64,000 bases of DNA from Hydrogenovibrio marinus (GTDB taxonomy: Bacteria; Pseudomonadota; Gammaproteobacteria; Thiomicrospirales; Thiomicrospiraceae), in assembly GCF_013340845.1 (NCBI RefSeq), contig NZ_AP020335.1, forward strand, positions 2,108,001 to 2,172,000, given 5' to 3'. The notes below the pieces were generated by a model that was not told where the DNA came from, did not search any database, and saw nothing but the letters and a program-made list of their open reading frames with translations. The position numbers and the translations under genes were made by a program. Below, in pieces: positions 762 through 63,840 of the stretch; within the stretch, counting starts at the first letter, position 1, and the number at the start of each line of letters is the position of its first letter.

Positions 762-1415
762 ATGAGCACGGAAAATCTGCAGGACAATACTCAAGGTATC
801 GATACCACGCAGCAATGGACATCAACCACACTTGCCAAAATTTTTGAAACCATCTTGAATCAATCGGTAGCCATGGATGAAATGCAGGGCATCGGCTTTC
901 AAATGCTGGATGAAAAAGTTATCCAACTAACTTTTACCGACTTGAAGTTAACCTTCTTTATCATTTACCAGCTGGATGCCGCCAAAAATGAAAAATCTAC
1001 CAGGTTGGGGCACTTCACCGTGCAGGCTCATTTGATGGGCAGTGCTGATACGCATATCAAAACAACCTTGACCGACTGGCTACGCCGCAACACTGAAACC
1101 GAAAGCCCTCTTGGCTCCGCTTTCCTAGCTGCTCTTTATACAATCGACATTGACTGGGAAGAGCAACTTTCCCATTTCACCGGAGACTTCATTGCTTTCA
1201 ATATCAGCCAAACCGCACGCAGCACCAAGCAAAACTTCAAAGCGGCAAAGCAGAAAGCCGGCGTCACGCTGAAAGAATACCTACAATTTGAAATCAACCT
1301 TCTGCCGACCAAACTACAGGTAGCTCACTTCAATCAAGAAGTGGAAGATCTTGCCGATGAAGTTGATGCCCTGGCCGCACGAGTCGATGCGCTAACCCAC
1401 TCAACCCCAAAATAA
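762..1415 (+). CDS. ubiJ: Ubiquinone biosynthesis accessory factor UbiJ (SCP2 domain)
   Basis: Lipid-binding accessory protein of the soluble Ubi complex, recognised by its position between ubiE and ubiB, an SCP2-like N-terminal domain (about residues 20-120) and a C-terminal heptad coiled coil (EVEDLADEVDALAARVDAL) expected for UbiJ. I chose ATG 762 because GAAGAGG lies just upstream; an upstream in-frame ATG at 708 lies inside ubiE. About 217 residues, normal for the family. A copy of the 19-bp dispersed repeat is embedded at 992-1010 and encodes a segment around KSTRLG, probably a loop. Confidence 0.9.
   Translation: MSTENLQDNTQGIDTTQQWTSTTLAKIFETILNQSVAMDEMQGIGFQMLDEKVIQLTFTDLKLTFFIIYQLDAAKNEKSTRLGHFTVQAHLMGSADTHIKTTLTDWLRRNTETESPLGSAFLAALYTIDIDWEEQLSHFTGDFIAFNISQTARSTKQNFKAAKQKAGVTLKEYLQFEINLLPTKLQVAHFNQEVEDLADEVDALAARVDALTHSTPK
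992..1010 (+). repeat. 19-bp dispersed repeat, single copy inside ubiJ
   Basis: Exact match to consensus AAAATCTRCCAGGTTGGGG with R=A. It is read in the ubiJ frame as E-K-S-T-R-L-G. No partner copy is nearby. Confidence 0.85.
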
Positions 1416-1424
1416 ACTTTTCGT

Positions 1425-3065
1425 ATGCTTTCTTTTATCAAAACACCTTTCAAGCAGTTCAAAAGACTGATTAAAATCAATCGCGTCTTAACCTATTACC
1501 GTATAGATCATTTACTGTTTGCCAACACGAAATACGAATGGTTCACGCTCATCAACGGCATCCTTCCTTGGAACTGGCGCTCACGTTCCAAAGTCTCCAG
1601 AGGCGAACGCATTCGCCTCGCCTTGGAAGAATTAGGGCCAATTTTCATCAAATTCGGGCAAGCCCTTTCCACGCGTAAGGATCTGTTACCGGAAGATATT
1701 TCCGTCGAGTTGCGAAAACTACAAGATGACTGTCCTCCTTTTGATGAACAACACTCTATTGAAATCATCGAAAAAGGGTTAAAACGCTCTATTTCGGAAG
1801 CCTATGCAAGCTTTGACCCAGTGCCGATGGCATCCGCCTCTATTGCTCAAGTGCATGCCGCCACGTTAATGGATGGTACTGAAGTGGTTGTTAAGGTCGT
1901 ACGCCCTGATATCAAACCGGTTATCGAACAGGATGTCTCGATTTTGCGTTCCTTAGCACAACTACTGGAAGCTGCCATTAAGGAATCGCGTCGCCTACAC
2001 CCAACGGAAGTGGTTGCCGAGTTTGAAAAAACATTACTTGATGAACTCGATATGATGCGTGAAGCATCAAATGCTGCACAATTGCGCCGCAACTTCGAGA
2101 ACTCCGAATTACTTTATGTTCCGGAAATCTACTGGTCACATACTAACGATCATGTCATGACCATGGAACGTATCTACGGTATCCGCATTTCCGATACCGA
2201 CAAATTAATTGAAGCAGGTGTCGACTTAACCGACTTGTCCGCAAAAGGCGTCACCATTTTCTTCACCCAGGTTTTCAAACACAACTTCTTCCATGCGGAT
2301 ATGCATCCTGGGAACATCTTCGTGTTACCGGACGGCCGTTATGCGGCTATCGACTTCGGTATCATGGGCACACTCACCCCCGAAGACCAGCGTTATCTAG
2401 CCGAGAACTTCCTGGCATTTTTCAATCGCGATTACCTTCGCGTTTCCGAACTGCACATTGAGTCTGAATGGGTGCCGAGAGATACTCGTGTCAATGAACT
2501 TGAGTCCGCCATTCGCTCAGTCTGCGAACCGATTTGGGACAGACCTTTGAAAGAAATTTCATTCGGTTTGTTCTTGATGCGTCTATTCCAAACCGCTCGA
2601 CGCTTCGGCATGGAAGTTCAGCCACAGTTGGTATTGCTACAAAAGACACTATTGAATATCGAAGGTCTTGGTCGTCAATTAGATGATGAACTGGATTTGT
2701 GGGACACCGCTAAACCTTTCTTGGAAGACTGGATGCAAGAGCGCGTTGGCCTCAAAAGCCTTATCAAAAACACCAAAGCCAATCTTCCTTACTGGATTGA
2801 GCAAGCACCGACCCTTCCTGGGTTACTGCATGCCAGCTTAAGTAAGCTTGCTCACGCCGACTTCCAGCAAACCGCCGAAAAGCTTGAAAAAGTACAACAA
2901 CAAATGGAAAAACAGCGCAAAGCAGAGCACCGCCGCTGGATAGGATTATTGTTGGTTGGCGCAGCAGCTTTTATCCCTACCTTAGATCTCCCTTCGTTTT
3001 TACACGAAGACTGGTTTAGAGCCATTATTGCCCTAACTGGGGTTTATCTTATTATAAAAAAATAA
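1425..3065 (+). CDS. ubiB: UbiB, ABC1/ADCK-family kinase-like ubiquinone synthesis protein
   Basis: Membrane-anchored atypical kinase/ATPase needed for ubiquinone synthesis. The sequence has the family's KxGQ-type segment (IKFGQALSTR, about residues 75-85), the ATP-site Lys region (VVVKVVRPDI), the catalytic FHADMHPGNIF loop and AIDFGIMGTLT in place of a DFG motif. Two C-terminal hydrophobic segments (about residues 500-545) anchor it in the membrane. Length 546 aa is typical. It begins 9 bp after ubiJ; the Shine-Dalgarno is weak, which fits translational coupling. Confidence 0.96.
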   Translation: MLSFIKTPFKQFKRLIKINRVLTYYRIDHLLFANTKYEWFTLINGILPWNWRSRSKVSRGERIRLALEELGPIFIKFGQALSTRKDLLPEDISVELRKLQDDCPPFDEQHSIEIIEKGLKRSISEAYASFDPVPMASASIAQVHAATLMDGTEVVVKVVRPDIKPVIEQDVSILRSLAQLLEAAIKESRRLHPTEVVAEFEKTLLDELDMMREASNAAQLRRNFENSELLYVPEIYWSHTNDHVMTMERIYGIRISDTDKLIEAGVDLTDLSAKGVTIFFTQVFKHNFFHADMHPGNIFVLPDGRYAAIDFGIMGTLTPEDQRYLAENFLAFFNRDYLRVSELHIESEWVPRDTRVNELESAIRSVCEPIWDRPLKEISFGLFLMRLFQTARRFGMEVQPQLVLLQKTLLNIEGLGRQLDDELDLWDTAKPFLEDWMQERVGLKSLIKNTKANLPYWIEQAPTLPGLLHASLSKLAHADFQQTAEKLEKVQQQMEKQRKAEHRRWIGLLLVGAAAFIPTLDLPSFLHEDWFRAIIALTGVYLIIKK

Positions 3066-3247
3066 CATCCACGCACTGCTCCCTACAGGGTAGAAAACCC
3101 AAAGAACTCGTAGTAGGATTGTCTTATAAGAGTGAAAATATTCACCAATACAAAAAAGCAACAGGAAATGCTTAGAGCTTAAATAATTGCACTTAATTAA
3201 GCTGATGGTTCACGGATTTTGAACCTTTTTGACAGAGGATACAGACA

Positions 3248-12120: not shown

Positions 12121-13335
12121 CTAAAGCTCAGTCTGCGGCTTGGCTTTCAACACCAACGCCGCAGCCAACATAACAAACACTGAAGAGACCACCAGACTCG
12201 CTTCCATTCCTGCAAACTGATACGTCAAACCGGACAATAACGTACCGATCAAACGCCCACCTGCGTTCGCCATGTAATAAAAACCGACATCTTTAGATGC
12301 GCCATCTTCATCTGCAAAGGACACGATCAGATAGGAATGAACAGCCGAGTTTAGAGCAAATACGATACCGAAAATCATCAACCCCACCACGATGACCGTT
12401 TGCGGATGCCATGACAACAACGGCGCCATCGCAATTGGGACCAACGCCAGCAACACCGCCAGTTTCATCGCCGTCATTGAAGTCGGTTTCGCGCCCTCTT
12501 CAACAGCTTTACCTTTTTTGATACCTGTCAGTTTAGGTGTGATCGCCTGCACAAACCCATAACCGATCACCCAAGCCGCCATAAAGGTACCAACTGCCAT
12601 AAACGACCAGCCCAACACGGACTCCAAAAACACCGGCAACGCCACCACAAACCAAATATCTCTTGCACCGAACAAAAAGAATCGTGCTGCAGACAACCAG
12701 TTGATGGCTTGAGATTTGGAAAAAATTTCACTGAATTTGGATTTGGTTTTCGCTTTGCCAAGTGACGCATCCAACAAGAAAATGGAAAACACCAATGGCA
12801 AAACAATAATGGCAACCAATACATAAAGCGCATTGGTGAAGCCCACGCCTTCCAGCAACGCCGCACCGATAAAGAATCCAACGCCTTTCAACGCATTTTT
12901 CGACCCGGTGAGTAACGCCACCCAAGAATAGAGTTGCCCACTTGCGTCCGATGCCAGACTCTTGATGGAACTTTTGGCCGACATTTTATTGAGGTCTTTA
13001 GCAATACCGGACAAAGCCTGTGCAGCCATCACATAAGCCACCGTCAAATAACTGCTATCCACCGTCAACATAATCAGAGCGATGACCTGCAACACCAAGC
13101 CGAGGTTCATGGTGACATTCAATCCCAGCCTGGCGCCCAGCCAACCGCCAATCAGATTTGTCACCACACCGAAGAATTCATACAGCAAGAACAGCAGCGC
13201 AATATCGAAAGGAGAATAACCAAGTTGGTTGAAATAGAGCAGCACCAACATGCGGATGGCACCATCGGTCAAGGTAAATGCCCAATAATTGGCAGTCACC
13301 AAGCCGTATTGCTGTAATGAAGAGAGTTTCATCAT
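12121..13335 (-). CDS. arsJ: ArsJ, organoarsenical (1-arseno-3-phosphoglycerate) efflux MFS permease
   Basis: Major-facilitator exporter that, in the characterised ArsJ family, extrudes 1-arseno-3-phosphoglycerate made by the partner GAPDH from arsenate, giving arsenate resistance. It is recognised by the opening TANYWAFTLTDGAIRMLVLL, the loop GIAKDLNKMSAKSSIK, about 12 hydrophobic segments, and pairing with a GAPDH in an arsR/arsC operon. 404 aa, normal. A 51-bp hairpin from two copies of the dispersed repeat separates it from GAPDH; GGAAGG lies before the start. Two adjacent ATGs make the exact start uncertain by one codon. Confidence 0.93.
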   Translation of the reverse strand: MMKLSSLQQYGLVTANYWAFTLTDGAIRMLVLLYFNQLGYSPFDIALLFLLYEFFGVVTNLIGGWLGARLGLNVTMNLGLVLQVIALIMLTVDSSYLTVAYVMAAQALSGIAKDLNKMSAKSSIKSLASDASGQLYSWVALLTGSKNALKGVGFFIGAALLEGVGFTNALYVLVAIIVLPLVFSIFLLDASLGKAKTKSKFSEIFSKSQAINWLSAARFFLFGARDIWFVVALPVFLESVLGWSFMAVGTFMAAWVIGYGFVQAITPKLTGIKKGKAVEEGAKPTSMTAMKLAVLLALVPIAMAPLLSWHPQTVIVVGLMIFGIVFALNSAVHSYLIVSFADEDGASKDVGFYYMANAGGRLIGTLLSGLTYQFAGMEASLVVSSVFVMLAAALVLKAKPQTEL

Positions 13336-13352
13336 AGTGCCTTCCGCAGTGC

Positions 13353-13403
13353 AAAATCTACCAGGTTGGGGGATGACTAAGCGCTCCCAACCTGGCAGAT
13401 TTT
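13353..13403. repeat. Inverted pair of the 19-bp dispersed repeat between GAPDH gene and arsJ
   Basis: Left copy 13353-13371 (exact, R=A). Right copy 13385-13403, inverted (R=G, last base differs). The pair can form an 18-bp stem with one mismatch and a loop of about 15 nt, ending 18 bp before the arsJ ATG. Confidence 0.9.
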
Positions 13404-13426
13404 ATGCCATGTAAGTAAGGTTTTGC

Positions 13427-14446
13427 TTAAGGGTTAAGTTGACCGACTTTTACCGCTAGTTCCATCATTCTCAATACATAACCGATTTCATTGTCGTACC
13501 ATGCCAGCAGTTTCACTTGCGTGCCGTTCACCACCATAGTCGATGGTGCATCAATCACTGAAGAACAAGGCTCACCTTCAAAATCAACCGATACCAATGG
13601 ACGCTCTTCAAAGCCAAGAATGCCTTTCAGATACGTTTCAGAAGCTTCTTTCAACAAAGCATTTACTTCCTCAACAGAAGTTTCTCGCTCCATTTCCAAC
13701 ACCAAATCGGTTAAAGAAGCATTCATCAAAGGTACACGCACCGCGATACCGTTCAAACGTCCGTTGAGTTCCGGGAAAATCGTTCCGATTGCTTTTGCCG
13801 AACCCGTAGTCGTTGGAATCAAAGATTCAAACGAAGCTCTGGCACGACGCAAATCCGCATGACCATGGTCAACCACTTTCTGCGTGTTGGTGCGGTCGTG
13901 CATGGTGGTAATCATCCCATGCTTGATGCCCAACTTTTCATGCATAACTTTTATCACAGGCGCGATACAGTTAGTGGTACAAGAAGCGGAAGTGATGATT
14001 GGGTCTTGCCCGGCAACAAAGACATTATCGTTAATGCCCATGACGATATTCTTGATGCCTTCTTTCATAGGCGCGGCAACAATGATTTGCTTCACGCCTT
14101 GGTCAAGATAAGGTTGCAGTGCCTCTTTGGTGCGGAATTTACCCGTAGCTTCAATCACCACATCCACATTCAATGCCGACCAATCGGTGTCCGCAATGTC
14201 TTTATTGCTTGAATAGGAAATTGTCTGCTCTTCAATCGCCATGGTTTGGTCTTCAGAATTGGCCGTCACGTCATGATGCCAACGTCCATGCGCCGAATCG
14301 AAATGTAACAAGTGCGCTGAGCCGACCACATCGGTCGCAGTCTCATTGATATGTACAAACTCAACCTGCGGCCAATCAAAAGCTTCTCTTAACGCCAACC
14401 GCCCCATGCGGCCAAAACCGTTGATCGCTACGCGTATTTTTTGCAT
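13427..14446 (-). CDS. ArsJ-associated glyceraldehyde-3-phosphate dehydrogenase
   Basis: Class I GAPDH fold: NAD-binding INGFGRMGR at the N-terminus, catalytic Cys in [12 protein letters not shown] (about residue 155) and [12 protein letters not shown] near the C-terminus. In ars operons this enzyme forms 1-arseno-3-phosphoglycerate from arsenate and glyceraldehyde-3-phosphate for export by ArsJ. 339 aa. Position between arsC and arsJ supports detoxification rather than central glycolysis; a role in the Calvin cycle cannot be excluded from sequence alone. Confidence 0.92.
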
Positions 14447-14476
14447 GTTGTATTCCTGTTCCTAATAACTGGATGA

Positions 14477-14974
14477 TTACTTTGACAACGCAGCTTCGTG
14501 ATGCAAAGCGGCGACTTCATCCATGTGTTGTTGCAATTTGAGGTGTTCAAGCTTTTCCATCGGCAGCTCAGTAAACAAGCGAATGCGGTTTTCCAAATAA
14601 CGCAAAGCTTCACGAAAAGGTCTGATTTCCTCATTTCCATTTCTTAAGGGGTCTTCAATACCCCAATGTGCCGTGACCGGATGTCCAGGCCATACAGGAC
14701 AAACTTCGCCCTTGGCGGCATCACATACGGTGATGATCAAGTCCATGTGCGGCGCGTCAGAACCGGAAAATTCATCCCAGCTTTTTGAACGTAGTCCTTC
14801 CGTGCTTAATCCCGCCCCCTTTAACACCTCCAGTGTCTTAGGGTGAACATGCCCCAACGGTGCACTCCCAGCACTGAAGGCTTGAAAGCGCCCGTTTGAA
14901 GCGTTGTTCAATAAAGCTTCAGCAATAATGCTTCTCGCTGAATTTGCGGTACAAATAAATAAAACATTAAACAT
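14477..14974 (-). CDS. arsC: Arsenate reductase ArsC (low-molecular-weight phosphatase fold)
   Basis: Reduces arsenate to arsenite. The P-loop is CTANSARS (C8; most homologues have CTGNSARS), with resolving cysteines C84 (ITVCDAA) and C92 (EVCPVWPG), the three-Cys pattern of thioredoxin-linked ArsC. The C-terminal about 30 residues extend past the usual fold. Located 30 bp upstream of the GAPDH gene on the same strand. Confidence 0.93.
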   Translation of the reverse strand: MFNVLFICTANSARSIIAEALLNNASNGRFQAFSAGSAPLGHVHPKTLEVLKGAGLSTEGLRSKSWDEFSGSDAPHMDLIITVCDAAKGEVCPVWPGHPVTAHWGIEDPLRNGNEEIRPFREALRYLENRIRLFTELPMEKLEHLKLQQHMDEVAALHHEAALSK

Positions 14975-15051
14975 CTCGGTCTCCGGAACAAGAAAAAACC
15001 TTTACATTCCATCAACAATAAATGACGAAAATATGAAAGTCTGATGAAATT

Positions 15052-15615
15052 TTACCCTTGTGGCGCTTGCTCAAACCATTCCTGGATTTTCTCTTTAGAA
15101 GGTACACTTCCTGAATGCACAACCATTTCAGCGATAACAACGGCTGGCGTAGACATTACGCCATATTCCAAAATTTTCGCTACATCATGAACAGCAATAA
15201 CATTCACCGCAACGTTCATCTCTTTCGCGACCATCTCAATACGCTTGATGGTGTTATCACAGTTGGCGCAGCCTGTTCCCAAAACTTTGATTTCCATGCC
15301 ATCTTTTACGCTCTCCGCAGACGAACCACAGCAAGACGTTTCTTCCGCACCTGAACAACATGAAGATTCCACTTTTTTCTCTTTGGCTGTTCCGCAACTA
15401 CCGTCTGGGCAGCACTCACCGGTTTTCAATAACTTGCCAACCACGTTACTTGGACACCGTCCAGTAAAGGTTGCTTGCAATCCCATACCTGCTGCAAAGA
15501 TTCCCAACCACAACCAGTTAGGTTCAAATAAATTCACTTGCCCGAAAACATGCGCCATGATAATTGAAAATAAAATCATCGACGTCATCATACGAACCAT
15601 CAAATTGTTTTTCAT
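15052..15615 (-). CDS. DUF2892-like membrane segment fused to Cys-rich linker and thioredoxin-like domain
   Basis: Three parts. Residues 1-60 are two hydrophobic helices ending in FTGRCPSNVVG, like the YgaP/DUF2892 membrane module. Residues 65-100 are a Cys-rich linker with CC or CxxxxC clusters (C68, C69, C74, C86, C87, C95, C96). Residues 107-187 are a thioredoxin-like fold with GCANC (C116, C119) and cis-Pro STPAVVI. Ten cysteines in 187 residues. Gene order in the ars operon suggests electron delivery or metalloid binding for ArsC/ArsP; that is inference. It lies 29 bp after arsP. Confidence 0.8.
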   Translation of the reverse strand: MKNNLMVRMMTSMILFSIIMAHVFGQVNLFEPNWLWLGIFAAGMGLQATFTGRCPSNVVGKLLKTGECCPDGSCGTAKEKKVESSCCSGAEETSCCGSSAESVKDGMEIKVLGTGCANCDNTIKRIEMVAKEMNVAVNVIAVHDVAKILEYGVMSTPAVVIAEMVVHSGSVPSKEKIQEWFEQAPQG

Positions 15616-15644
15616 TGCTATACCCTCTCAAGACCAATACAAAA

Positions 15645-16610
15645 TTAACCAAATAAAAAATTAAGCAGATAACCGACCAATATGAATGCTACGGTCAGCA
15701 CTCCGACAAATGCCGCCAATGCAGGCCAGCGAATCACTTTTCTTAAAATCAACAATTCAGGCAATGACAAAGCTGCGATACTCATCATCAGCGCCAAGCT
15801 GGTACCAATCGGCACGCCTTTGTTCAACATCGCCTCGACAATCGGTACCACGCCCGTCGCATTCGAATACAACGGCACCCCAAGCAAGACTGCCGCAGGT
15901 ACCGACCACCAATTGTTTTTGCCGCTTAAATAAGTCGTTACCCATTCCTGCGGCACATAACCATGAAATAACGCACCTAATGCAATCCCGACAACCACCC
16001 ATTTCCAGATTCTACCGACAATGGTTTTAACTTCTTCACGCGCAAACTGGTGACGCTGTTGCCAGGACATTTTCGGGTTCATCGCACTTCCGGCTGAACC
16101 GTGACTTTTCAATTCCCAGACATAGGACTCCACCCAGCGCTCCGGCTTGAACCACTCCAACACAACCGAACCGATGTATGCCACCATCAAGCCTGCCGCG
16201 ACGTAAAGCAATGTCACCTGCCAACCAAGTATGCTCCATAGTAACACCACCGCAACTTCATTAATCATTGGGCTGGCGATTAGAAAAGCAAAAGTGATCC
16301 CCATCGGGATTCGCGCTTCCACAAACCCGACAAATAAAGGCACCGAGGAACACGAGCAAAACGGCGTCACACTGCCCAGCGTTATCGCCAGGCTTCTCGC
16401 CAGCCATTTCGCTTTACCTTGAACCTTATCGCGGATCCACTCTGTCGAGATAAATGCGCGGAGCAGTCCGATGGCATAAATAATCACCACCAGCATGAAA
16501 AATATCTTCAGCAAGTCCATAACGAAAAAATGCAGTGCTTCTGCCGCTTGCGTATGGGCTGACATAGCAAAAACTCGATACACTAGAAAACTGGCAATTT
16601 GTTCAAACAT
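15645..16610 (-). CDS. arsP: ArsP-type permease (DUF318)
   Basis: Polytopic permease of the DUF318/ArsP family, members of which export trivalent organoarsenicals. The signature SVTPFCSCSSVPLFVGF, with paired cysteines in a TM helix, and the second repeat ASPMINEVAVV are present; about eight TM helices. I chose ATG 16610 because a purine-rich site is well spaced; the in-frame TTG at 16616 is an alternative. First gene of the minus-strand ars operon, behind the operator at 16653-16672. Related permeases move other metals, so the exact substrate is inferred from context. Confidence 0.85.
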   Translation of the reverse strand: MFEQIASFLVYRVFAMSAHTQAAEALHFFVMDLLKIFFMLVVIIYAIGLLRAFISTEWIRDKVQGKAKWLARSLAITLGSVTPFCSCSSVPLFVGFVEARIPMGITFAFLIASPMINEVAVVLLWSILGWQVTLLYVAAGLMVAYIGSVVLEWFKPERWVESYVWELKSHGSAGSAMNPKMSWQQRHQFAREEVKTIVGRIWKWVVVGIALGALFHGYVPQEWVTTYLSGKNNWWSVPAAVLLGVPLYSNATGVVPIVEAMLNKGVPIGTSLALMMSIAALSLPELLILRKVIRWPALAAFVGVLTVAFILVGYLLNFLFG

Positions 16611-16649
16611 CTTCAATCTCTGTTAAGATAGTCAACATAGGATGAAAGC

Positions 16650-16678
16650 ATAATATCCGTTTATACGGATATATTCAA
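16650..16678 (-). promoter_or_regulatory. ars operon promoter with ArsR-type operator
   Basis: On the minus strand: TTGAAT (-35, 16678-16673), 17-bp spacer, TATTAT (-10, 16655-16650). A perfect inverted repeat ATATCCGT-TTAT-ACGGATAT (16653-16672) fills the spacer and overlaps the -10. Repressor binding there would block transcription of arsP onward, and probably of the divergent arsR. Confidence 0.8.
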
Positions 16679-16728
16679 TAAATATTCGCGAAGTCACAAA
16701 AACTTTATGTTCAAGTACGGAGTCAAAC

Positions 16729-17079
16729 ATGACGTCTATTGAAGATTACAGCCAGTTTTTCAAAGCCTTGAGTGAGCCGATGCGCCTACGTATTCTCTTT
16801 CTTTTACTCAATCGAGAAGATCTCTGTGTTTGTGATTTTGTGGCGGTAATGCAAGCTGGTCAAAGTTTGATCTCAAGACATTTGGCTTACCTGAAAAATG
16901 CAGGTTGGGTGAAATCCCACCGTGAAGGAACCTGGATGCATTATCAACTAGAGGCGTCGTACCTGCCGTCTTCCTATCTGGAAACACTTAAAGAACAACT
17001 TGCCAATGTCGAATCCTGCCAGCAAGATCTATTGGCTCTTGAAGCTTATGAGAAAAAGGGAAGGCAGTGTAATCTATGA
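16729..17079 (+). CDS. arsR: ArsR-family metalloregulatory repressor
   Basis: Winged-helix repressor released by As(III). The metalloid-binding DLCVCD motif (C33, C35) is intact and the helix-turn-helix SLISRHLAYLKNAGWV follows. 116 aa. CGGAG precedes the ATG. Divergent from arsP across 118 bp containing the palindromic operator. Cysteines near the C-terminus (ESCQQ, RQCNL) may also take part. Confidence 0.95.
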   Translation: MTSIEDYSQFFKALSEPMRLRILFLLLNREDLCVCDFVAVMQAGQSLISRHLAYLKNAGWVKSHREGTWMHYQLEASYLPSSYLETLKEQLANVESCQQDLLALEAYEKKGRQCNL

Positions 17080-17136
17080 AAAACCCTGTAAACAGTCGTA
17101 GAATAGACCCATTAAAAAAAGAAAATTAGAAAATAT

Positions 17137-17165
17137 TTATTAATTCCATTAAATCGTTTTATAAT
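17137..17165 (+). promoter_or_regulatory. Candidate mqo promoter
   Basis: Consensus -10 TATAAT at 17160-17165 with a weak -35-like TTATTA at 17137-17142 (17-bp spacing), about 40 bp before the likely mqo start. Confidence 0.45.
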
Positions 17166-17202
17166 ACCCGGCTCTGAATTTTTCAACGAAATGGATAAGT
17201 CT

Positions 17203-18546
17203 ATGCGCACCCGAAATTTTGATGTTGTAATTGTTGGCGGTGGAGTCACCGGTACAGCGTTAAGCTACGTCTTAGCGAAATACACTGACGTCAAAAGCAT
17301 CTGTATCCTGGAAAAATATGGCGCTATCGCTGCCCTAAACTCCAATGCAACCAGCAACAGCCAAACTTTGCATTGCGGCGATATTGAAACCAATTACACC
17401 CTAGCGAAAGCCACGCAAGTCAAGCACACAGCAAATATGCTGGTGCACTATGCCGAACAAGTTGAAAAAAACGACTTTCTTTTCAAATTCCCGAAAATGA
17501 TTTTAGCGGTGGGCGAAGACGAATGTGAACGCCTTGTAAAACGCCACGAAGAATTCAAAGACGCCTTCCCTTACATGGAACTTTGGGATTTCGACCGCAT
17601 TGCAGAAGTCGAGCCAGCGGTTGCCTACAAAGATGGCAAGCCACGCCCTGAAAAAATCATGGCTAGCGGCTGTACCGACGAATACTCTGCTGTCAATTAC
17701 GGCAACTTGTCTCGTTCGTTTATCGACAGCGCTCGCAAAGCCGGTAAAGACGTACAAGTTTACTTGAGCACGGAAGTCGAGCGCATTGTCGAAGTGGAGC
17801 ACGACCATTACGAATGCCAAACGGCACAGGGTACATTCAACTCACGCTTTGTGGTGGTTTCAGCCGGTGCCCACAGCCTATTGCTTGCTAATCAGTTAGG
17901 ACACGGCATGGATCTTTCCATCCTGCCGATGGCCGGTAGCTTCTACTTCGCACCAAAAATTCTAAACGGCAAAGTCTACACCATGCAAAACGACAAACTG
18001 CCGTTTGCCGCCATTCATGGTGATCCGGATTTGACCGCACCAGACAAAACTCGTCTAGGACCAACCGCTTTGATGTTGCCAAAACTGGAACGTTACACGG
18101 GTGGAACCTATCTGGATTTCTGGCGCAGCTTGAAGCTCGATGGCAAAGTACTGAAAGTCTTCTGGGACTTGATGCGCGATGGCACAATCCGTAACTACGT
18201 TCTGAAAAACTTCTTGTTTGAAGTACCTTGGTTCAACAAGCGTCTATTCGTCAAAGACGCACAAAAAATCCTACCGGATTTAAAAGCCTCTGACATTTAC
18301 TATGCCGATGGCTACGGTGGGGTACGCCCTCAAGTTATCGACAAGACTACCCGAGAGCTTAAATTGGGTGAAGCCAGCATTGTGCCTGAAGACGACCACA
18401 TCATCTTCAACATGACGCCATCACCAGGGGCAACCACTTGCTTAGGTAATGCTTACCGCGACGCTAAAATCATTTGTGAGCGATTGGGCGTTCCAATGAA
18501 ACGCGAACAGTTGATTAACGACCTACTAGACGGTGAAGACCTCTAA
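17203..18546 (+). CDS. mqo: Malate:quinone oxidoreductase, Helicobacter-type
   Basis: FAD-dependent peripheral membrane enzyme oxidising malate to oxaloacetate with electrons to quinone. FAD motif VVIVGGGVTGTAL at the N-terminus; SNSQTLHCGDIETNYT, LPMAGSFYF and NMTPSPGATTCL align closely with Helicobacter pylori Mqo and differ from the longer E. coli-type enzyme (about 447 versus about 550 aa). ATG 17203 is preferred since GGATAAG precedes it; ATG 17191 is in frame. Its last 14 bp overlap the next gene, suggesting coupling. Confidence 0.9.
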   Translation: MRTRNFDVVIVGGGVTGTALSYVLAKYTDVKSICILEKYGAIAALNSNATSNSQTLHCGDIETNYTLAKATQVKHTANMLVHYAEQVEKNDFLFKFPKMILAVGEDECERLVKRHEEFKDAFPYMELWDFDRIAEVEPAVAYKDGKPRPEKIMASGCTDEYSAVNYGNLSRSFIDSARKAGKDVQVYLSTEVERIVEVEHDHYECQTAQGTFNSRFVVVSAGAHSLLLANQLGHGMDLSILPMAGSFYFAPKILNGKVYTMQNDKLPFAAIHGDPDLTAPDKTRLGPTALMLPKLERYTGGTYLDFWRSLKLDGKVLKVFWDLMRDGTIRNYVLKNFLFEVPWFNKRLFVKDAQKILPDLKASDIYYADGYGGVRPQVIDKTTRELKLGEASIVPEDDHIIFNMTPSPGATTCLGNAYRDAKIICERLGVPMKREQLINDLLDGEDL

Positions 18547-19594
18547 CCAACCAGCTTCCAATACCAAATACCCCGTCAATCTTGTCACGGGGCTATTGGG
18601 AAGCGGCAAAACCACCCTTATCCGACACCTGCTTGAGTCCAAACCTCAAAATGAGATTTGGGGACTACTCATTAACGACTTCGGTGAAATCGGCATTGAT
18701 GCCGCTGCACTGACAAATCCCCAAAACCCGGAAAACACCCCTTTAATGGAAGTGTCAGGTGGCTGTCTATGCTGCACTGCATTTCATGGTTATCAACAGG
18801 CGTTATCGACTCTGTTAGCACAAAAGGTCAATCGCATCATTATCGAACCGACCGGGCTGGGACACCCCGCCAAAATTATCGACCTATTGAAACAACCGCC
18901 GTTCACTGAACTTGTTTCGATTTCCGGTATTATCGGTGTCATCACCGCTACACAACTTTCGCCGGAGCGCTGGCAAAAGTCCGCCATCATGCGAGACATA
19001 GTCACGCTTGCCGACACATTAATCGTCAATAAAAACGACCTGGCAACACCAACGGAATTGGCAGCGGCGCAATCGGTTTTGGATAACACCTACCCGCCCA
19101 AGGAAAACTGTATTGTCACTTCTTTGCGAAACAGCGTTTTACTAGCGCCCCCCAACCTGGTAGATTTTAAGCAAATCCAGCAACCCTTTTACCTCATCGC
19201 CGGACTGGATGAACATGCTCAGCAAACTGCTGGCACCCCGCAACCTTTTGCCTCGACATTGCCTTTATGTACCCGCTCAGAAATGCGCATTGGCAACACC
19301 AGCACCATCGGCTGGGTGTTTGATTCACAACTGCAATTTCACCGCACCCATTTTCTGGCATGGTTGAACAGCTTAATCATCGACACCGACAAAAACCTCC
19401 TGCGAGCAAAAGGCTTGATCAAAACTGGGAATGAATGGCAGCACCTCAACACTGTTGACCAGCAAACCCAGCTCTCCGACATCGCTTGGCGTCAAGACAG
19501 TCGGCTAGAACTTATCTTCAGCCACGCATTAACCGAGCGGGATATTGCTGCGCTGGAAAGCGGGTTATCAGAGTGTCTTTTCACCCGAAATTAA
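18533..19594 (+). CDS. COG0523 (CobW/YjiA/ZigA-type) metal-handling GTPase
   Basis: G3E-family P-loop GTPase thought to insert metals into client proteins. Walker A GLLGSGKTTL, the metal-binding CxCC motif in SGGCLCC, EPTGLGHP and NKND (NKxD) are all visible; C-terminal CobW_C-like domain from about 245. 353 aa. GTG start inside the end of mqo. Located 213 bp before folE2: COG0523 proteins and FolE2 are often linked in zinc-limitation regulons, so a zinc-sparing role is plausible. A dispersed-repeat copy at 19150-19168 encodes PPNLVDF. Confidence 0.87.
   Translation: MKTSNQPASNTKYPVNLVTGLLGSGKTTLIRHLLESKPQNEIWGLLINDFGEIGIDAAALTNPQNPENTPLMEVSGGCLCCTAFHGYQQALSTLLAQKVNRIIIEPTGLGHPAKIIDLLKQPPFTELVSISGIIGVITATQLSPERWQKSAIMRDIVTLADTLIVNKNDLATPTELAAAQSVLDNTYPPKENCIVTSLRNSVLLAPPNLVDFKQIQQPFYLIAGLDEHAQQTAGTPQPFASTLPLCTRSEMRIGNTSTIGWVFDSQLQFHRTHFLAWLNSLIIDTDKNLLRAKGLIKTGNEWQHLNTVDQQTQLSDIAWRQDSRLELIFSHALTERDIAALESGLSECLFTRN
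19150..19168 (-). repeat. 19-bp dispersed repeat, single copy inside the COG0523 GTPase gene
   Basis: Exact consensus copy (R=A) in inverted orientation; the gene strand reads it as P-N-L-V-D-F. It falls in the linker after the GTPase domain. Confidence 0.85.
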
Positions 19595-19606
19595 CAAAAC
19601 TAATAC

Positions 19607-19640
19607 CCGACTGTTTTAGTCAGGAATTATTTTATTTTTA
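19607..19640 (+). terminator. Possible terminator after the COG0523 gene
   Basis: Short stem CCGACT/AGTCAGG with a one-base bulge followed by a T-rich run ending in TTTATTTTTA. Weak stem, so only moderate support. Confidence 0.4.
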
Positions 19641-19641
19641 G

Positions 19642-19650
19642 TGATATAAT
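19642..19650 (+). promoter_or_regulatory. Extended -10 promoter for folE2
   Basis: TGATATAAT fits an extended -10 (TGnTATAAT) about 155 bp before folE2, leaving a leader of roughly 150 nt. I looked for a Zur box and did not find a convincing one. Confidence 0.5.
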
Positions 19651-19806
19651 GCACCGCTTGCTGTCAGCAAAATCGTTCAACTTCAACGATGAAGACGATT
19701 CAAACTTAGCCCATCATGGCCTTTGTGCTGACTTACTCACAACAAACTGTTTGAAAAAACACAGACCTCACTCAAATCAGGTCTCATAAAAGCCGAAGGA
19801 AATTGC

Positions 19807-21273: not shown

Positions 21274-21332
21274 AAACCTGCCTCTCATCCGAAAATCGAA
21301 CAATAGTATTTAACCATTAGTTTTTTAAAAAC

Positions 21333-23122: not shown

Positions 23123-23123
23123 T

Positions 23124-23142: not shown

Positions 23143-23165
23143 TAACCAACATAAAGCTACAAACA

Positions 23166-46443: not shown

Positions 46444-47261
46444 CTAGGCGAAGGCAATCAGCGAGTGGCGTACTTCATTGACAACTTCTTTTGAAATCAT
46501 CAAGTCTTCACGTGCCACTTCCAAATAGCCATTGGCTTCATCTGTCATATACGAGCCGAAAGACACCTCACTGACGAAAACATTCGCGATCTTCAACATC
46601 GACACCATCCCACGAAGGCGATCATTGGGATGATTCAGTTCGGCGCTGTGATGCAATAAAATGGCATTCAGCATATCAACAAACAACTTCCACTTCTGCC
46701 CCAACAATAAACCGACATCCATGTGATTAGTCAGGTATTGACCCATCTCTTTTTTAATGCCAGAAACCGGATACGTATTGAGGTAAGCAAACGTTTTTAG
46801 ATACCCTTTCGGGTCTTTCATTGCCAGCAATAAACAGCCGCCGTTGTGAAACAACCCTAACAAATAGGCTTCATCACGAGTCACTTCGGCAACATGCTCG
46901 GACAGCTCGGCGCAGCAAAAAGCAACATCCGCTGAATGCTCAATAATTCCCTGAATCTGAGGATTGTCGAAAAGATTTTTAATGCTGCGGAAATCACCAG
47001 GTTTTTGAGATTTTCATAACCCAATGCGTCCACCGCTTCACGAATGGATTTCACCGGGTTTCTCAACTTCATGACGGGTGAGTTGGCGATACGCAACACT
47101 TCTCCAGAGAGCTTAGTGTTGCTTTCAATAATTCGAGTAATTGTTTGGTTGTTTGGGAACTTTCTGGACATCTCCTCGTCCAGTTCCATGATTTCCTTCG
47201 GCAGGTCCGGAATTTTAATTCCTTTTATCGCCTGAACCGCCTGTCTTAATCTTTGTTCCAT
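46444..47261 (-). pseudogene. HDOD-domain gene broken by a frameshift (tandem paralogue of 47370-48185)
   Basis: Two ORFs (46881-47261 and 46444-46884) together match the intact neighbour along its full length. The N-terminal part reads MEQRLRQAVQAIKGIKIPDLP; translation shifts after LVISAA. In the other frame the sequence continues KNLFDNPQIQ... to TRDEAYLLG, so a single base is missing around 46976-46988 compared with the paralogue's AAIKNMF. Full-length product would have been about 270 aa. Sequencing error is the main alternative. Confidence 0.85.
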
Positions 47262-47272
47262 AAAAAAGCCTG

Positions 47273-47317
47273 AGGCTATTCAGGCTATTCAGGCTATTCA
47301 GGCTATTCAGGCTATTT
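47273..47317. repeat. Five tandem 9-bp units (AGGCTATTC)
   Basis: AGGCTATTC repeats at 47273, 47282, 47291, 47300 and 47309 (the last ends in T), between the two HDOD paralogues and immediately before the start of the broken one. Confidence 0.9.
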
Positions 47318-47369: not shown

Positions 47370-48185
47370 TTAAGCAAATGCCACCAAGGCTCTGCGAACC
47401 GCATTAACAGAGTCTTTATCAATCATCAAATCACCGCAAGCACGATCTAAATAACTGTAGGCTTCTTCAGTCATATAAGAGCCGTAAGATACTTCGTTCA
47501 CGATAATATTGGCGACTTTAATCATAGACGTCATGGCACGTAATTTGTCGTTGGAATGCTCTGCATCATCATGATGGTTCAAAATGACGTTCAACATATC
47601 AATCGGCAACTTCCATTTTTGACCTAGCAACAAACCGACATCCATGTGATAAGTATCATAAAGCTCAAACTCTTTATGCACGCCACTCACTGGATGGGTA
47701 TTCATATGGGAAAAAATTTTAAGATAGTTTTCCGGATCTTTGGTCGCTAACATCAAGCAACCGCCGTTATGGAATAGCCCGAGCAAATAGGCTTCATCAC
47801 GCGAGACATCGGCAATATGCTCGGACAACTCAGCACAACAGAAAGCGGTGTCGGTAGAGTGCTCGACGATTTCTTGCACCTGCGGTTTATCAAACATGTT
47901 TTTGATTGCGGCAGCGATCACCAAATTTTTCAGGTTATCGTAACCAAGGCGGTCTACTGCTTCGCGGATAGACGTCACTGGAGATTTCAGCTTCATGACT
48001 GGAGAGTTCACCAACCTCAACACTTCTCCAGAAAGCTTGGTATTGCTTTCTATGATGTCGGCGACTTTTTGATTGTTTGGAAACTTGCAGGCAAGCTCCA
48101 TGTCCAATTCCATGATTTCTTTCGGCAAATCAGGGATTTTAACCCCTTTAATGACATCAATAGCTTTCCTAAGCCTTTGCTCCAT
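47370..48185 (-). CDS. HDOD-domain signalling protein
   Basis: Single HDOD (HD-related output domain) protein, no partner domain. Conserved CCAELSEHIA, LLGLFHNGGCLML and GYMTEEAYSYL-like segments match the broken paralogue. 271 aa from ATG 48185, preceded by GAGAGG; upstream in-frame sequence lacks a good start and is not shared with the paralogue. Role is unknown; HDOD proteins often act in c-di-GMP or stress pathways. Third HDOD gene in this window. Confidence 0.83.
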   Translation of the reverse strand: MEQRLRKAIDVIKGVKIPDLPKEIMELDMELACKFPNNQKVADIIESNTKLSGEVLRLVNSPVMKLKSPVTSIREAVDRLGYDNLKNLVIAAAIKNMFDKPQVQEIVEHSTDTAFCCAELSEHIADVSRDEAYLLGLFHNGGCLMLATKDPENYLKIFSHMNTHPVSGVHKEFELYDTYHMDVGLLLGQKWKLPIDMLNVILNHHDDAEHSNDKLRAMTSMIKVANIIVNEVSYGSYMTEEAYSYLDRACGDLMIDKDSVNAVRRALVAFA

Positions 48186-48390
48186 TAAATCGTCCTCTCT
48201 ATTCCTTGAGTTATACTTGCACAGTCTTAATACATGGGAACAAATATCCCAACGCCATACTTCATCCGCAATAATAAACTGTTTTATATTTTTGTAAAAT
48301 GAGATTTCGCAATTACGGTCAAGTTTTTGCAAATTCAAAAAAACATAATACCTTTGTACCGAAAAGAACAGAGGTTTGGTTATTTAAATT

Positions 48391-49248
48391 ATGAAAAATA
48401 AACGCTACGAACAAAGCATTCAACGTGTATGCAATTACATATATGAACATCTGGATGAAACGCTTACCGTCGAACAGCTAAGTGACGTTGCACATTTTTC
48501 CAAATACCATTTCCATCGTCAGTTTTCGAACAGCGTCGGTGTGAACGTATTCAAGTTTATCCAATTGCTGAGGCTTAAACGCGCCTCATATCAATTGGTA
48601 TTTCATCAGAATACCCGCATCACGGATATCGCCCTGTCCTCAGGATACGATAGCCACGAAAGCTTTAGCCGAGCTTTCAAAAAGAGCTTTGGCTTGTCGC
48701 CGACCGAATTCCGACGAACACCTATCTGGTCCGATTGGCACACAAACTACCAATTTAAACCAATAAGAGGTCAAATAACGATGGATGCAGAAATCATTGC
48801 CTTTCCCGAGTTAAAAATCGCCGTTTTCGAGCACAGAGGGCCGCACGAAAAACTGAATGAATCCGTCAGCCAATTTATTGACTGGCGTAAGGAAACCGGA
48901 CTTTCTCCAATAACACACAGTCGAACTTTTGGACTTGCCTACGATGATCCTAGCGTGGTCGAACCAGAAAAGTTCCGCTTTGATATTTGTGGCGAAGTTC
49001 AGAGGGAGATTCCTCAGAACAGCTACGGCATCGTCAACAAAACCATTCCCGGTGGACGTTGCGTGAAGATTCGCCATTACGGCAGTCATGATGATATGGA
49101 TGAAACGGTTTACTATCTTTATCGCAACTGGCTGACGGAAAACAACGAAACGCCACGAGACTTCCCGTGCTTTTTTGAATATCTTAACTTCTTCCCGGAA
49201 GTGCCTGAGCATGAGTTGATGACGGATGTTTATTTGCCCCTGAATTAA
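48391..49248 (+). CDS. AraC-family regulator with GyrI-like effector domain
   Basis: N-terminal AraC/XylS DNA-binding domain with two HTH motifs (LTVEQLSDVAHFSKYHFHRQ, ITDIALSSGYDSHESFSRAFKK) and C-terminal GyrI/Rob-like small-molecule domain (about 115-285, GGRCVKIRHYGSHDDMDETVY). 285 aa. Rob/SoxS/BltR-type drug or stress response is likely, but no adjacent target is clear. Shine-Dalgarno is distant. A paired dispersed-repeat hairpin follows. Confidence 0.85.
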   Translation: MKNKRYEQSIQRVCNYIYEHLDETLTVEQLSDVAHFSKYHFHRQFSNSVGVNVFKFIQLLRLKRASYQLVFHQNTRITDIALSSGYDSHESFSRAFKKSFGLSPTEFRRTPIWSDWHTNYQFKPIRGQITMDAEIIAFPELKIAVFEHRGPHEKLNESVSQFIDWRKETGLSPITHSRTFGLAYDDPSVVEPEKFRFDICGEVQREIPQNSYGIVNKTIPGGRCVKIRHYGSHDDMDETVYYLYRNWLTENNETPRDFPCFFEYLNFFPEVPEHELMTDVYLPLN

Positions 49249-49270: not shown

Positions 49271-49314
49271 CCCCAACCTGGCAGATTTTCAATGCAAAAT
49301 TTGCCAGGTTGGGG
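49271..49314. repeat. Inverted pair of the 19-bp dispersed repeat after the AraC-type gene
   Basis: Left copy 49271-49289 is exact and inverted; right copy 49296-49314 has one mismatch; 6-nt loop. Lies between convergent genes, with runs of A before the left copy and a T-rich centre, consistent with a two-way terminator. Confidence 0.9.
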
Positions 49315-49359: not shown

Positions 49360-49893
49360 TTACTCCATCGCGCTGAAGCGACAAACATTCGTACTAATAT
49401 AATCCCCATAGGCGGAACCCGATTGCAGCCAGTTTTTGGCTTTATTGATTTTCACCATGGATGAACTGTCATCTTCAACCTGCAAATAAATGCCATACTT
49501 AAAGCGTGGGCTCGACTCGTCTTCGACAATCAAGTTGCCTTGCTCGACAAAAATGACTTTTTGCGGCGTTTTTCCTTGCTTGCACACAAACGCATCTTGA
49601 CCATGTTCATTGAACAAACCTTGTAGTTCACGGTTGAAACACTCTTTACTAACCGGGTTGAACTGATAGTAGGTTTCAATCAGTGATTCTGCGTTTTCCA
49701 ACAAATAGTTCTTCACTTCAGCTGTTTGTGTAAACCCATCGTCACCCAATTCATAGATGACAAATGCTGCATCAGCAGGGCCCGTTTTCAAACTTTGATC
49801 TTGATGAACAATCAAACCTTCATCCTGCAAAATCACGTTTAATTCTTTTTCTGTCAGAGCATTGACCGCTTCTTTAAACTCTTGTGCATTCAT
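49360..49893 (-). CDS. Unknown protein downstream of cbbO
   Basis: 177 aa, acidic, no signal peptide or TM helix and no domain I recognise. N-terminus MNAQEFKEAVNALTEKEL. Same strand as cbbO with 52 bp between, so it may be the last gene of the RuBisCO operon; a CCCTGC/GCAGGG hairpin lies in that gap. Function not assignable. Confidence 0.7.
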   Translation of the reverse strand: MNAQEFKEAVNALTEKELNVILQDEGLIVHQDQSLKTGPADAAFVIYELGDDGFTQTAEVKNYLLENAESLIETYYQFNPVSKECFNRELQGLFNEHGQDAFVCKQGKTPQKVIFVEQGNLIVEDESSPRFKYGIYLQVEDDSSSMVKINKAKNWLQSGSAYGDYISTNVCRFSAME

Positions 49894-56443: not shown

Positions 56444-57871
56444 TTAAAAAGGCAAAACCAATGTAGGTTCAAGCTTGAGTAAGCGTTGCTTGAACGCTGC
56501 TTGAATCTCTAACAGTGCTGTTTGAGAAGTCGCCTCAAATCGAATCGTGAGCGTTGACGTCGTGTTTGACGCTCGAACCAACCCCCAACCTTGTGCATAC
56601 TCAACCCGAACACCGTCCAAAGTGACCACTTCTTTGACCTTCGAGTCAGGTTGATCTACAAAACTTTGACGCAAACGTTCCACCAAGACGGCTCCCTCAC
56701 CCTCAGTGATAGAAACATGAATTTCCGGCGTGGCCCGCCACTTGGGTATGCCCGCAAATAATTCTGCCGTTGTTTTGCTTTGATTGGCAACTAATTCCAA
56801 CAAACGTGCCGCTGTATAAATAGCATCATCAAAGCCATACCATCTGTCCTGAAAAAACAAGTGCCCCGACATTTCTCCGCCCAATAAAGCACCTGTTTCT
56901 TTCATTTTGGCCTTCATCAGCGAGTGCCCTGTTTTCCACATGGTCGCCTTACCGCCATGACGTGTTACCTCTTGCATCACCAGCGCTGAACACTTCACGT
57001 CAAAAATCACTTCCGCCCCCGGATGATTAGCCAAAATATCCTTGGCAAACAAAATCAATTGGCGATCAGGCTCCAACACATTGCCCAAATTATCCAAAAC
57101 ACCACAACGATCGCCATCGCCATCAAATGCCAGCCCGATATCCGCTTTGGACGCCAGCACAACTTCTCTTAGTGCTGCAAGATTGCCCAGTTTTGCAGGG
57201 TCTGGGTGATGATTAGGAAAACGTCCATCCACTTCACAGAATAGCTCGATGACTTCGCAGCCAATTGCCCTGAGAACTTCCGGGGCATAACGACCAGCAA
57301 CACCATTTCCCGCATCCACCACTACTTTTAATGGTCGATTAATCTGGATTTCTTCTGAAATACGGCGGCAATAGTCGGTCAAAACAGGTAGCGTTTCTAT
57401 GTAGGGTTGCCCCCAACCTGGCAGATTTTGAGCGGTTTTGAAATCATCATCAAAGGCGGTAGAGCTAATGCGACGATACAGCGCTTGAATTTGATCGCCA
57501 TACATTGCTTGCCCTTGTAGAACTAACTTGATGCCGTTGTCTTCTGGTGGATTATGCGAGCCTGTAATGACCGCACAAGAGTTAACACCATCTATCGTTG
57601 CTGCAGCAAAATAAACCATTGGCGAAGTGACCTCACCAACGTCGATAACAGAAACATTTTGACTCGAAACACCTCGCATAAAAGCTCTTTGTAACCGCAA
57701 GCTGGACAGCCTGCCATCACGCCCGACAACCAAACGATCTTCACCGCAAGCCCTTAGCGCTTCGGCAAAGGCGATGCCTATCGCTTCAGAGACCTGTTCA
57801 TCTAGCGTGACATCAACTTTGCCACGAATATCGTAGGCTTTGAAAATACCAGAGCTGCACAGCAACGTCAC
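56444..57871 (-). CDS. Phosphomannomutase/phosphoglucomutase (AlgC/ManB family)
   Basis: Interconverts hexose 1- and 6-phosphates. Phosphoserine loop ITGSHNPP (about residue 100), Mg-binding DGDGDRCG, sugar loop GEMSGHLFF and phosphate-binding RFEATS-type end (IRFEATSQ). 475 aa. Start at GTG 57871 is provisional, TTG nearby in frame. Shares strand with the kinase upstream, 13 bp apart. Dispersed repeat 57411-57429 encodes QNLPGWG in a variable linker. Confidence 0.9.
   Translation of the reverse strand: MTLLCSSGIFKAYDIRGKVDVTLDEQVSEAIGIAFAEALRACGEDRLVVGRDGRLSSLRLQRAFMRGVSSQNVSVIDVGEVTSPMVYFAAATIDGVNSCAVITGSHNPPEDNGIKLVLQGQAMYGDQIQALYRRISSTAFDDDFKTAQNLPGWGQPYIETLPVLTDYCRRISEEIQINRPLKVVVDAGNGVAGRYAPEVLRAIGCEVIELFCEVDGRFPNHHPDPAKLGNLAALREVVLASKADIGLAFDGDGDRCGVLDNLGNVLEPDRQLILFAKDILANHPGAEVIFDVKCSALVMQEVTRHGGKATMWKTGHSLMKAKMKETGALLGGEMSGHLFFQDRWYGFDDAIYTAARLLELVANQSKTTAELFAGIPKWRATPEIHVSITEGEGAVLVERLRQSFVDQPDSKVKEVVTLDGVRVEYAQGWGLVRASNTTSTLTIRFEATSQTALLEIQAAFKQRLLKLEPTLVLPF
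57411..57429 (-). repeat. 19-bp dispersed repeat, single copy inside the phosphohexomutase gene
   Basis: Exact consensus on the gene strand (R=G), read as Q-N-L-P-G-W-G, in the region between the first two domains where the family varies. Confidence 0.85.
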
Positions 57872-63194: not shown

Positions 63195-63312
63195 ATAAAT
63201 AACCGCCAAGCGTCTCCTTTCATTCAGAGTATCTATTGGTTATTTAAAAGTCATTGCCGTAGAATCATGTCTCAATAGTAGAAAAAAAAGGGTTTTCAAC
63301 AAACAAGCGATT

Positions 63313-63801
63313 ATGAAAAAAGTACTCAATACATTAATTACATCAAGCTATATGTTTTCCGCCTTATCTTTATTTGCCATCGCGGTGATGATCATGGGCT
63401 GGTCGGTGTCTGAAGTATTTGAGCAGCTTTTTAATGCCAGTCTACAAAAATCCGAATTCGTCGCCATCATGTTGCAGGCAGTGGGGGCAATCGTTATCGC
63501 AATTGCCATTATTGATGTCTCCAAATATATGATTGAAGAAGAGATTTTCCGCGATAAGGAATTACGCTCACCGAAAGAAGCGCGCGAAACCATGACCAAA
63601 GTCATCGTCATCATCTCCATCGCGGTTGGAATTGAAGGATTGGTTTATATCTTTAAAGCGGGTAGTGAGAACATCACCTTATTGCCCTACCCTGCGGTAT
63701 TGCTAGTTGTTTCCGTTATCTTAATTGTTGGTCTGGGTATCTTCCAAAAACTCAGTTTATCTACTGAAAAGTCGGTCAGAGAACCTAAACTCAAAGACTA
63801 G
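63313..63801 (+). CDS. Unknown four-helix membrane protein
   Basis: 162 aa with about four hydrophobic segments (10-32, 48-70, 98-118, 124-145) and a polar loop after the second. I do not recognise the family. Weak Shine-Dalgarno. A single dispersed repeat follows its stop. Confidence 0.65.
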   Translation: MKKVLNTLITSSYMFSALSLFAIAVMIMGWSVSEVFEQLFNASLQKSEFVAIMLQAVGAIVIAIAIIDVSKYMIEEEIFRDKELRSPKEARETMTKVIVIISIAVGIEGLVYIFKAGSENITLLPYPAVLLVVSVILIVGLGIFQKLSLSTEKSVREPKLKD

Positions 63802-63821
63802 TCCCTATCACCGAAGGCAAT

Positions 63822-63840
63822 ACCCAACCTGGCAGATTTT
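63822..63840 (-). repeat. 19-bp dispersed repeat, single intergenic copy at 63.8 kb
   Basis: AAAATCTGCCAGGTTGGGT on the minus strand (one mismatch), between a membrane-protein stop and the stop of a convergent partial gene. Confidence 0.82.

Follow-up and report, generated by a model that had tools for sequence, protein, structure and literature searches.

A dispersed 19-bp word in Hydrogenovibrio marinus that resembles a DNA uptake sequence and varies between species

In the available parts of two papers, genome-wide uptake sequences are presented as a feature of two families, Neisseriaceae and Pasteurellaceae (PMC3630211, PMC13020248). The consensus of the DNA uptake sequence (DUS) of Neisseriaceae is GCCGTCTGAA (PMC13020248, PMC1852404), and that of the uptake signal sequence (USS) of Pasteurellaceae is AAGTGCGGT or ACAAGCGGT (PMC3630211), with PpdA/ComN as its proposed receptor (PMC12616744). 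TerminatorNet reports uptake words in the terminators of both families, and its available text makes no mention of Thiomicro- or Hydrogenovibrio (PMC13020248). Here we describe a 19-bp word, AAAATCTRCCAGGTTGGGG, that is dispersed through the genome of Hydrogenovibrio marinus, a marine hydrogen-oxidising bacterium assigned by NCBI taxonomy to the Piscirickettsiaceae, Thiotrichales. The starting point was a 64-kb stretch of DNA (the window), which spans positions 2108001–2172000 of a single 2,491,293-base contig. By analogy with the known systems, the word is likely to be the H. marinus dialect of a DNA uptake sequence for natural transformation. No description of such words in this family was found among the matches listed from the open-access literature, subscription papers being outside the scope of the search.

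Abundance, boundaries and placement of the word

The window contains 15 matches to the consensus with up to three mismatches, against an expectation of 0.02 and a maximum of one in 100 shuffles that preserved the dinucleotide composition. The core CCAGGTTGGG is exact in 14 of them, and the copy at 38866 carries CCAGGTCGGG. The copies form 11 loci, four of which are inverted pairs, and 10 of the 15 are located between open reading frames (ORFs) or at ORF ends, with genes defined by a simple heuristic ORF rule. A previous sequence-only reading of this DNA had counted 15 copies at 11 loci, 14 of them with this core, and had considered chance an insufficient explanation; all of this was reproduced, with one start at 20760 instead of 20761. 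Its statement that the copies sit in genes applies to five of them (992, 19150, 38866, 42299 and 57411) and is incorrect for the other ten. It had further reckoned that there would be hundreds of copies if this density held genome-wide, which the search at up to two mismatches bore out: the genome contains 371 (173 forward and 198 reverse), and the reversed pattern is found 0 times. The counts are therefore neither near chance nor confined to this segment, the two outcomes that reading had named as fatal to it. At up to three mismatches, the window, with its 15 copies in 64 kb, is somewhat denser than a 624-kb sample of which it forms part (103 sites).

In 464 kb (20 spaced 20-kb blocks and the window), CCAGGTTGGG is the top-ranked 10-mer, with 67 occurrences observed and 0.94 expected from a third-order model. 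The exact core is preceded on the left by a nearly invariant AAAATCT and purine and followed on the right mostly by G, and the farther flanks look random. Conservation is confined to these positions, so the unit is 19–20 bp long and has sharp ends. It comprises an A-tract outside the core, and the core itself is not palindromic.

In the 624-kb sample, 31 of the 103 sites are fully inside ORFs, seven are partly inside and 65 are between them, although ORFs make up 89% of the sequence. The coding copies are found on both strands (14 on the strand of the gene and 17 on the opposite one). Among intergenic sites, the density is 4.56 per kb in convergent gaps (37 sites in 8.1 kb), 0.80 per kb in tandem gaps (26 in 32.4 kb) and 0.33 per kb in divergent, promoter-side gaps (5 in 15.4 kb). 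The word favours the 3′ ends of genes and avoids divergent gaps. Promoter or operator sites are ruled out by the last of these densities, as a promoter element would show the opposite distribution.

The sites are fairly evenly spaced: for 41 clusters in a contiguous 244 kb, the coefficient of variation is 0.75, compared with 0.97 for random placement, and 3.5% of random placements were as even. When 102 sites were assigned by local GC skew, the G-rich strand held 57 and the opposite strand 45; this shows no clear Chi- or KOPS-like polarity, and elements of these two types were rejected. In one 20-kb block (2288001–2308000), all eight words are on the minus strand. The only sampled 20-kb block without a site (360001–380000) carries ORFs of 1352 and 1402 amino acids back to back, lengths that would fit rpoB and rpoC, and it is probably not an island. 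No case of exclusion of the word from islands was found among the sampled blocks.

Among the 103 sites there are 14 inverted pairs (28 sites), and no paired site lies fully inside an ORF. Since the word starts with A's, pairs in the +/− order end in T's; eight pairs have this order and end in the TTTT of the word like an intrinsic terminator, and six have the −/+ order, without a T run of their own. The folding energies of the pairs range from −25 to −51 kcal/mol. A consensus terminator scan of positions 13000–30000 missed the three inverted pairs located there, probably because of its loop limit of 3–8 and its T-tail rule, and returned terminator-like sites at the shuffled rate. These hairpins, together with the enrichment in convergent gaps, are what would be expected if the copies were nothing more than transcription terminators multiplied by duplication. 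However, the coding copies on either strand and the six pairs without a T run do not fit such an origin, which we regard as a very improbable sole explanation and reject on the 75 of 103 sites that are unpaired.

Species dialects and in-place base differences

The search of related genomes suggested by the sequence-only reading revealed close relatives with the same or a similar word. Among the genomes of the family (n = 62), the 19-mer at up to two mismatches is abundant only in H. marinus, JE_KL2 (G012; 396 copies) and a sister species (G007; 317 copies), and the other genomes contain 0–2. Widening the search to the order returned the same 62 genomes. JE_KL2, the closer relative of the two, shares the H. 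marinus word and keeps its T form at all 10 alignable sites of the 15 in the window, and the copies in G007 are mostly CCAGGCTGGG among the matches listed, with C in place of this T. A wider scan of genome contigs returned at least 120 stretches with the word, 116 of them from JE_KL2 and four with single matches, which among the matches listed belong to Thiomicrorhabdus and to metagenome-assembled genomes of Lachnoclostridium, Thermoflexales and a betaproteobacterium.

Other Hydrogenovibrio genomes have few 19-mers but carry other words in the sampled stretches, among them the palindrome CCAGGCCTGG, often inside ACCAGGCCTGGT. The palindrome is present in 234–856 copies in 26 of the 62 family genomes, from four genera, and its reversed control in 0–2 copies in any genome. 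Among the 272 genomes outside the family in a class sample of 276 gammaproteobacteria (all at least 90% complete), the maximum is 46, in a genome of 4.8 Mb. Family genomes with intermediate counts (G035 with 106, G041 with 44, G047 with 37, G023 with 27 and G046 with 24) were classed as not dense. The dialect of G013 is CCAGGGGTGG (from 106 kb), and that of G026, which belongs to another genus, is ACCGGCCGGT, which contains no CCWGG (from 40 kb). In total, 31 genomes were counted as having a dense word, the 26 palindromic ones and G000 (H. marinus), G007, G012, G013 and G026. De novo word counts covered 20–71 kb per genome, except for G058 with 4 kb. No dense word was found in 40 kb each of G024, G028, G042 and G051, a result that does not exclude one in these four genomes, because the known word was outranked by other repeats in the G007 and G012 stretches, and none was found in the 4 kb of G058; the other 27 genomes counted as lacking a dense word were tested for two words only. 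The upstream A-tract accompanies the core in H. marinus, G007, G013 and the palindromic species, in the latter partly by construction, since copies were oriented by A-richness. The order and direction of the dialect changes are inferred.

Each CCAGG core contains a CCWGG site, which is of the Dcm type. The high palindrome counts are reminiscent of the highly iterated palindrome HIP1 of cyanobacteria, also repeated genome-wide, which has been linked to methyltransferases (PMC4390886), and a palindrome connected with a DNA methyltransferase and with mismatch repair would explain them. However, the cores of H. marinus, JE_KL2, G007 and G013 are not palindromic, the conserved H. marinus unit of 19 bp extends to an A-tract outside the core, and G026 has a dialect without CCWGG. 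HIP1 is, moreover, described in the available text as the same in all instances (PMC4390886), whereas the words reported here differ between close relatives. A HIP1-like palindrome does not fit H. marinus, whose word is not palindromic although the core of 26 relatives is, and, judging from these comparisons of words, we consider an origin of this kind quite unlikely for the whole system.

The principal finding is the difference between H. marinus and G007, which was analysed in place by aligning 244 kb of the former with 300 kb of the latter (76% identity). Of 49 H. marinus sites, 33 are covered by the alignment and 16 are not. In 21 of the covered sites the alignment is ungapped, and all 21 have C in G007 where H. 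marinus has T, compared with a background T-to-C rate of 10.9% in the same alignments. The remaining covered sites comprise six with an intact C-form word adjoining an alignment gap, six that are lost or degenerate and none with an intact T-form. The other 18 positions of the word are identical in 15–21 of the 21 pairs, and the 30-column flanks are 45–85% identical. Viewed from the G007 side, 29 of 56 sites are covered, of which 21 have the T-form in H. marinus and six are gapped. Conservation in place is also seen between two palindromic genomes: in 80-kb stretches of G005 and G014, an alignment could be made for 5 of 13 and 9 of 21 palindromes, and 5 of 5 and 5 of 9 of these, the same five in both cases, have an identical palindrome at the orthologous position, compared with 5.9% of 10-mers overall.

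Coding sites were compared by codon-aware alignment. Fourteen H. marinus sites were examined and 13 have an ortholog in the G007 stretch; in 12 of these 13 the dialect base C is in register (nine with exact CCAGGCTGGG and three with one more core difference). Seven of the 12 sites differ non-synonymously at the dialect base, which changes the residue by itself in five (N to S twice, T to A twice and V to A) and together with a neighbouring change in two (D to S and N to R). In the other five it is silent, one of these having an L to Q change through a neighbouring base. Protein sequence has given way to the DNA word, and the conserved entity is therefore the DNA and not the peptide.

A repetitive extragenic palindrome (REP), its paired form (REPIN) or another small mobile element would likewise produce a dispersed repeat with inverted pairs, and a single Y1_Tnp match is present in JE_KL2, a genome with the same word. 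Nevertheless, H. marinus and G007, both with hundreds of words, have no Y1_Tnp match of the type found in REP-associated transposases (RAYT) at E ≤ 0.001, the unit stops sharply without flanking conservation, and orthologous copies are distinguished by in-place substitutions. On these three grounds the mobile-element explanation was rejected; it is mostly refuted and highly improbable. The sequence-only reading had likened the pattern to both uptake sequences and REP elements without settling on either, and only the first likeness persists, on evidence that is indirect and strong. Further over-represented words, GGGGACAGACC and GGGGACGCTACC, occur in G010 (stretches L178 and L183–L184) and G013 (L175 and L180–L182) and may be of REP type. 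These are two of the four genomes of the genus with a Y1_Tnp match, and the pooled stretches include transposase loci.

The even spacing, the hundreds of sites on both strands and the palindromic core of most relatives, as expected for a dimeric protein, could also reflect binding by a genome-wide architectural or maintenance protein (nucleoid-associated, or a factor for segregation or recombination) with a specificity that has shifted from one species to another. This possibility appears unlikely, however, as the sites lack a clear strand polarity of the kind used by Chi or KOPS, the bias toward convergent gaps and the inverted pairs would have no reason, and the uniform base difference, with amino acids changed too, would require strong site-by-site selection.

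Uptake as the proposed function

The best explanation, again by analogy, is that the word system works like DUS and USS, with an unrelated word and in a third family. This reading is strengthened by the abundance of the word on both strands, the terminator-like pairs, the 3′-end bias, the dialects and the coordinated change of orthologous sites. In the mechanism that we propose, the word on free DNA would be bound by a receptor at the cell surface, probably one of the minor pilins of a type IV pilus, and the word-bearing DNA would be drawn in, passed through ComEC and recombined. Labelled alleles would be imported preferentially and would be more likely to replace unlabelled ones, so that the word would accumulate genome-wide through point mutation and recombination. 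Accumulation would be greatest where the word is least harmful, with 3′ ends tolerating it best and both strands being filled, and inverted pairs at the 3′ ends of genes might also act as transcription terminators. When the preference of the receptor shifts, the sites would be rewritten in place, giving rise to dialects.

The uptake machinery seen in H. marinus consists of ComEC and three N_methyl prepilin matches, which, with PF12019 and PF16732, were the only such genes searched. ComEC/Rec2 is encoded at 1095167 and scores above the NCBIfam equivalog cut-off. ComEC is found in 56 of the 62 family genomes, comprising all 31 with a dense word and 25 of the 31 others. The one-sided chance of this co-occurrence is ∼0.01 (calculated by hand), and the association is weak because four of the six genomes without ComEC are <95% complete and one of these six, G035 (82% complete), carries 106 palindromes. 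Three prepilin-type genes cluster at 2036090–2037975, and their pilin-like products are a lead only, as candidate receptors. The larger cluster (2035652–2039234, L246 9652–13234) holds these three genes and a fourth ORF. Two of its proteins share the motif CPDTxxDGxEN, and visual comparison of H. marinus with G007 shows marked differences in the first protein. All four gave matches to 'prepilin peptidase-dependent' models far below the NCBIfam cut-offs.

Several observations weigh against a function in uptake. The open-access literature, among the matches listed, contained no experiment on DNA uptake or competence for these bacteria. The 317–396 copies are below the thousands stated for DUS and USS genomes (PMC3630211), and the perfectly palindromic core of most relatives is unlike either. 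ComEC does not discriminate: 25 of the 31 family genomes in which no dense word was detected also have it, and G035 shows the converse combination. PF16732 (ComP_DUS) has no match above the cut-off in any of the 62 family genomes, and the one with E just below 0.001, from G051, where no word was detected, falls short of it; PF12019 (GspH/FimT) has no match in 11 genomes of the genus, and the N_methyl matches of H. marinus number only three, of which two are above the cut-off. Of the 29 sites covered from the G007 side, a single weak word shows C in both genomes, and another site is lost from H. marinus. Finally, ungapped alignment with no more than three differences is seen for 36% of all aligned 19-mers, which makes retention of the word alone less telling than the uniform base difference.

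We consider a wider proposal about as likely as not: that self-DNA labelling in bacteria had a third, independent origin here, in which the widespread label is a perfect palindrome and its receptor, symmetric or blind to orientation, has no relation to ComP, that the label became asymmetric in the H. marinus clade, and that single-base shifts of the receptor then rewrote hundreds of sites in place and overrode protein sequence. A third family, if true, would show that self-DNA labels arise more than once, and would offer cultivable sulfur- and hydrogen-oxidising autotrophs for studying receptor and label. As the sister species are one base apart at the compared sites, co-evolution of receptor and label would be directly testable, and the amino-acid changes would reveal how much pressure a DNA label can exert on proteins.

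Copies in the window and comparison with known systems

Five window copies are in genes. The exact consensus at 992–1010 (+) lies inside an ORF without a Pfam match (708–1415) and is the same in JE_KL2. The copy at 19150–19168 (−) is in a CobW-family gene (18533–19594, +), and its G007 ortholog has the C dialect with an N to S change in the protein. The CCAGGTCGGG-containing copy at 38866–38884 (+), in a gene for an FAD/NAD oxidoreductase (37921–39021, −), has CCAGGCTGGG as its G007 ortholog, and D is changed to S there via two base changes. In the TauE/SafE gene (41947–42711, −), the copy at 42299–42317 (−) has the C dialect in G007 and the amino acid is unchanged; the same dialect is seen for the copy at 57411–57429 (−) in the phosphoglucomutase/phosphomannomutase gene (56444–57871, −), where the dialect base is silent.

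The first +/− pair, at 13353–13371 (+) and 13385–13403 (−), lies between ORFs 12121–13335 (−) and 13427–14446 (−) and ends in TTTT like a terminator; both arms correspond to CCAGGCTGGG in G007, the second adjoining an alignment gap. The other +/− pair, at 20760–20778 (+, three mismatches) and 20789–20807 (−), is located between the convergent ORFs 19807–20760 (a folE2-type GTP cyclohydrolase) and 20806–21303, and its second arm is degenerate in G007. Of the two −/+ pairs, the one at 28310–28328 (−) and 28333–28351 (+) follows a DEAD-box helicase gene (27077–28309) that is convergent with 28374–29159, and has 4 nt between its arms and a folding energy of −33.6 kcal/mol. The second, at 49271–49289 (−) and 49296–49314 (+), between the convergent ORFs 48391–49248 (AraC/GyrI-like) and 49360–49893, is lost in G007 in both arms. 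Two single copies adjoin gene ends: that at 23124–23142 (+) comes right after the stop codon of a LeuA-family gene (21497–23122) and is the same in JE_KL2, and that at 63822–63840 (−), just beyond the end of ORF 63313–63801, has a C-dialect ortholog in G007.

Two tandem repeats were also seen. In the window, a perfect 9-bp repeat of AGGCTATTC (47273–47316, 4.9 copies) separates two ORFs, 46649–47265 and 47572–48189, which are a tandem duplication (71% identical). In G007, a 318-bp repeat (L160 1–8494, 26.7 copies, 99% matches) probably encodes a giant repetitive surface protein.

USS proper is ruled out, as AAAATCTRCCAGGTTGGGG matches neither of the two USS consensus forms; the cores are unrelated, and the weak prepilin-peptidase-dependent matches of H. 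marinus are a further difference. The likeness to USS lies in the A's at the start, with the result that +/− pairs end in T's (PMC1852404). DUS proper is ruled out by the word itself, which is not GCCGTCTGAA, and by the ComP_DUS domain, that of the DUS receptor ComP, for which no family genome exceeds the cut-off. DUS also belongs to another bacterial class and is present in more copies, and, unlike DUS, the word has a palindromic core in most relatives of H. marinus. In its organization, however, the H. marinus word resembles DUS, which the available text describes as short and dispersed, with species dialects and terminator-associated inverted pairs, especially well tolerated in intergenic regions and also common within genes (PMC3630211).

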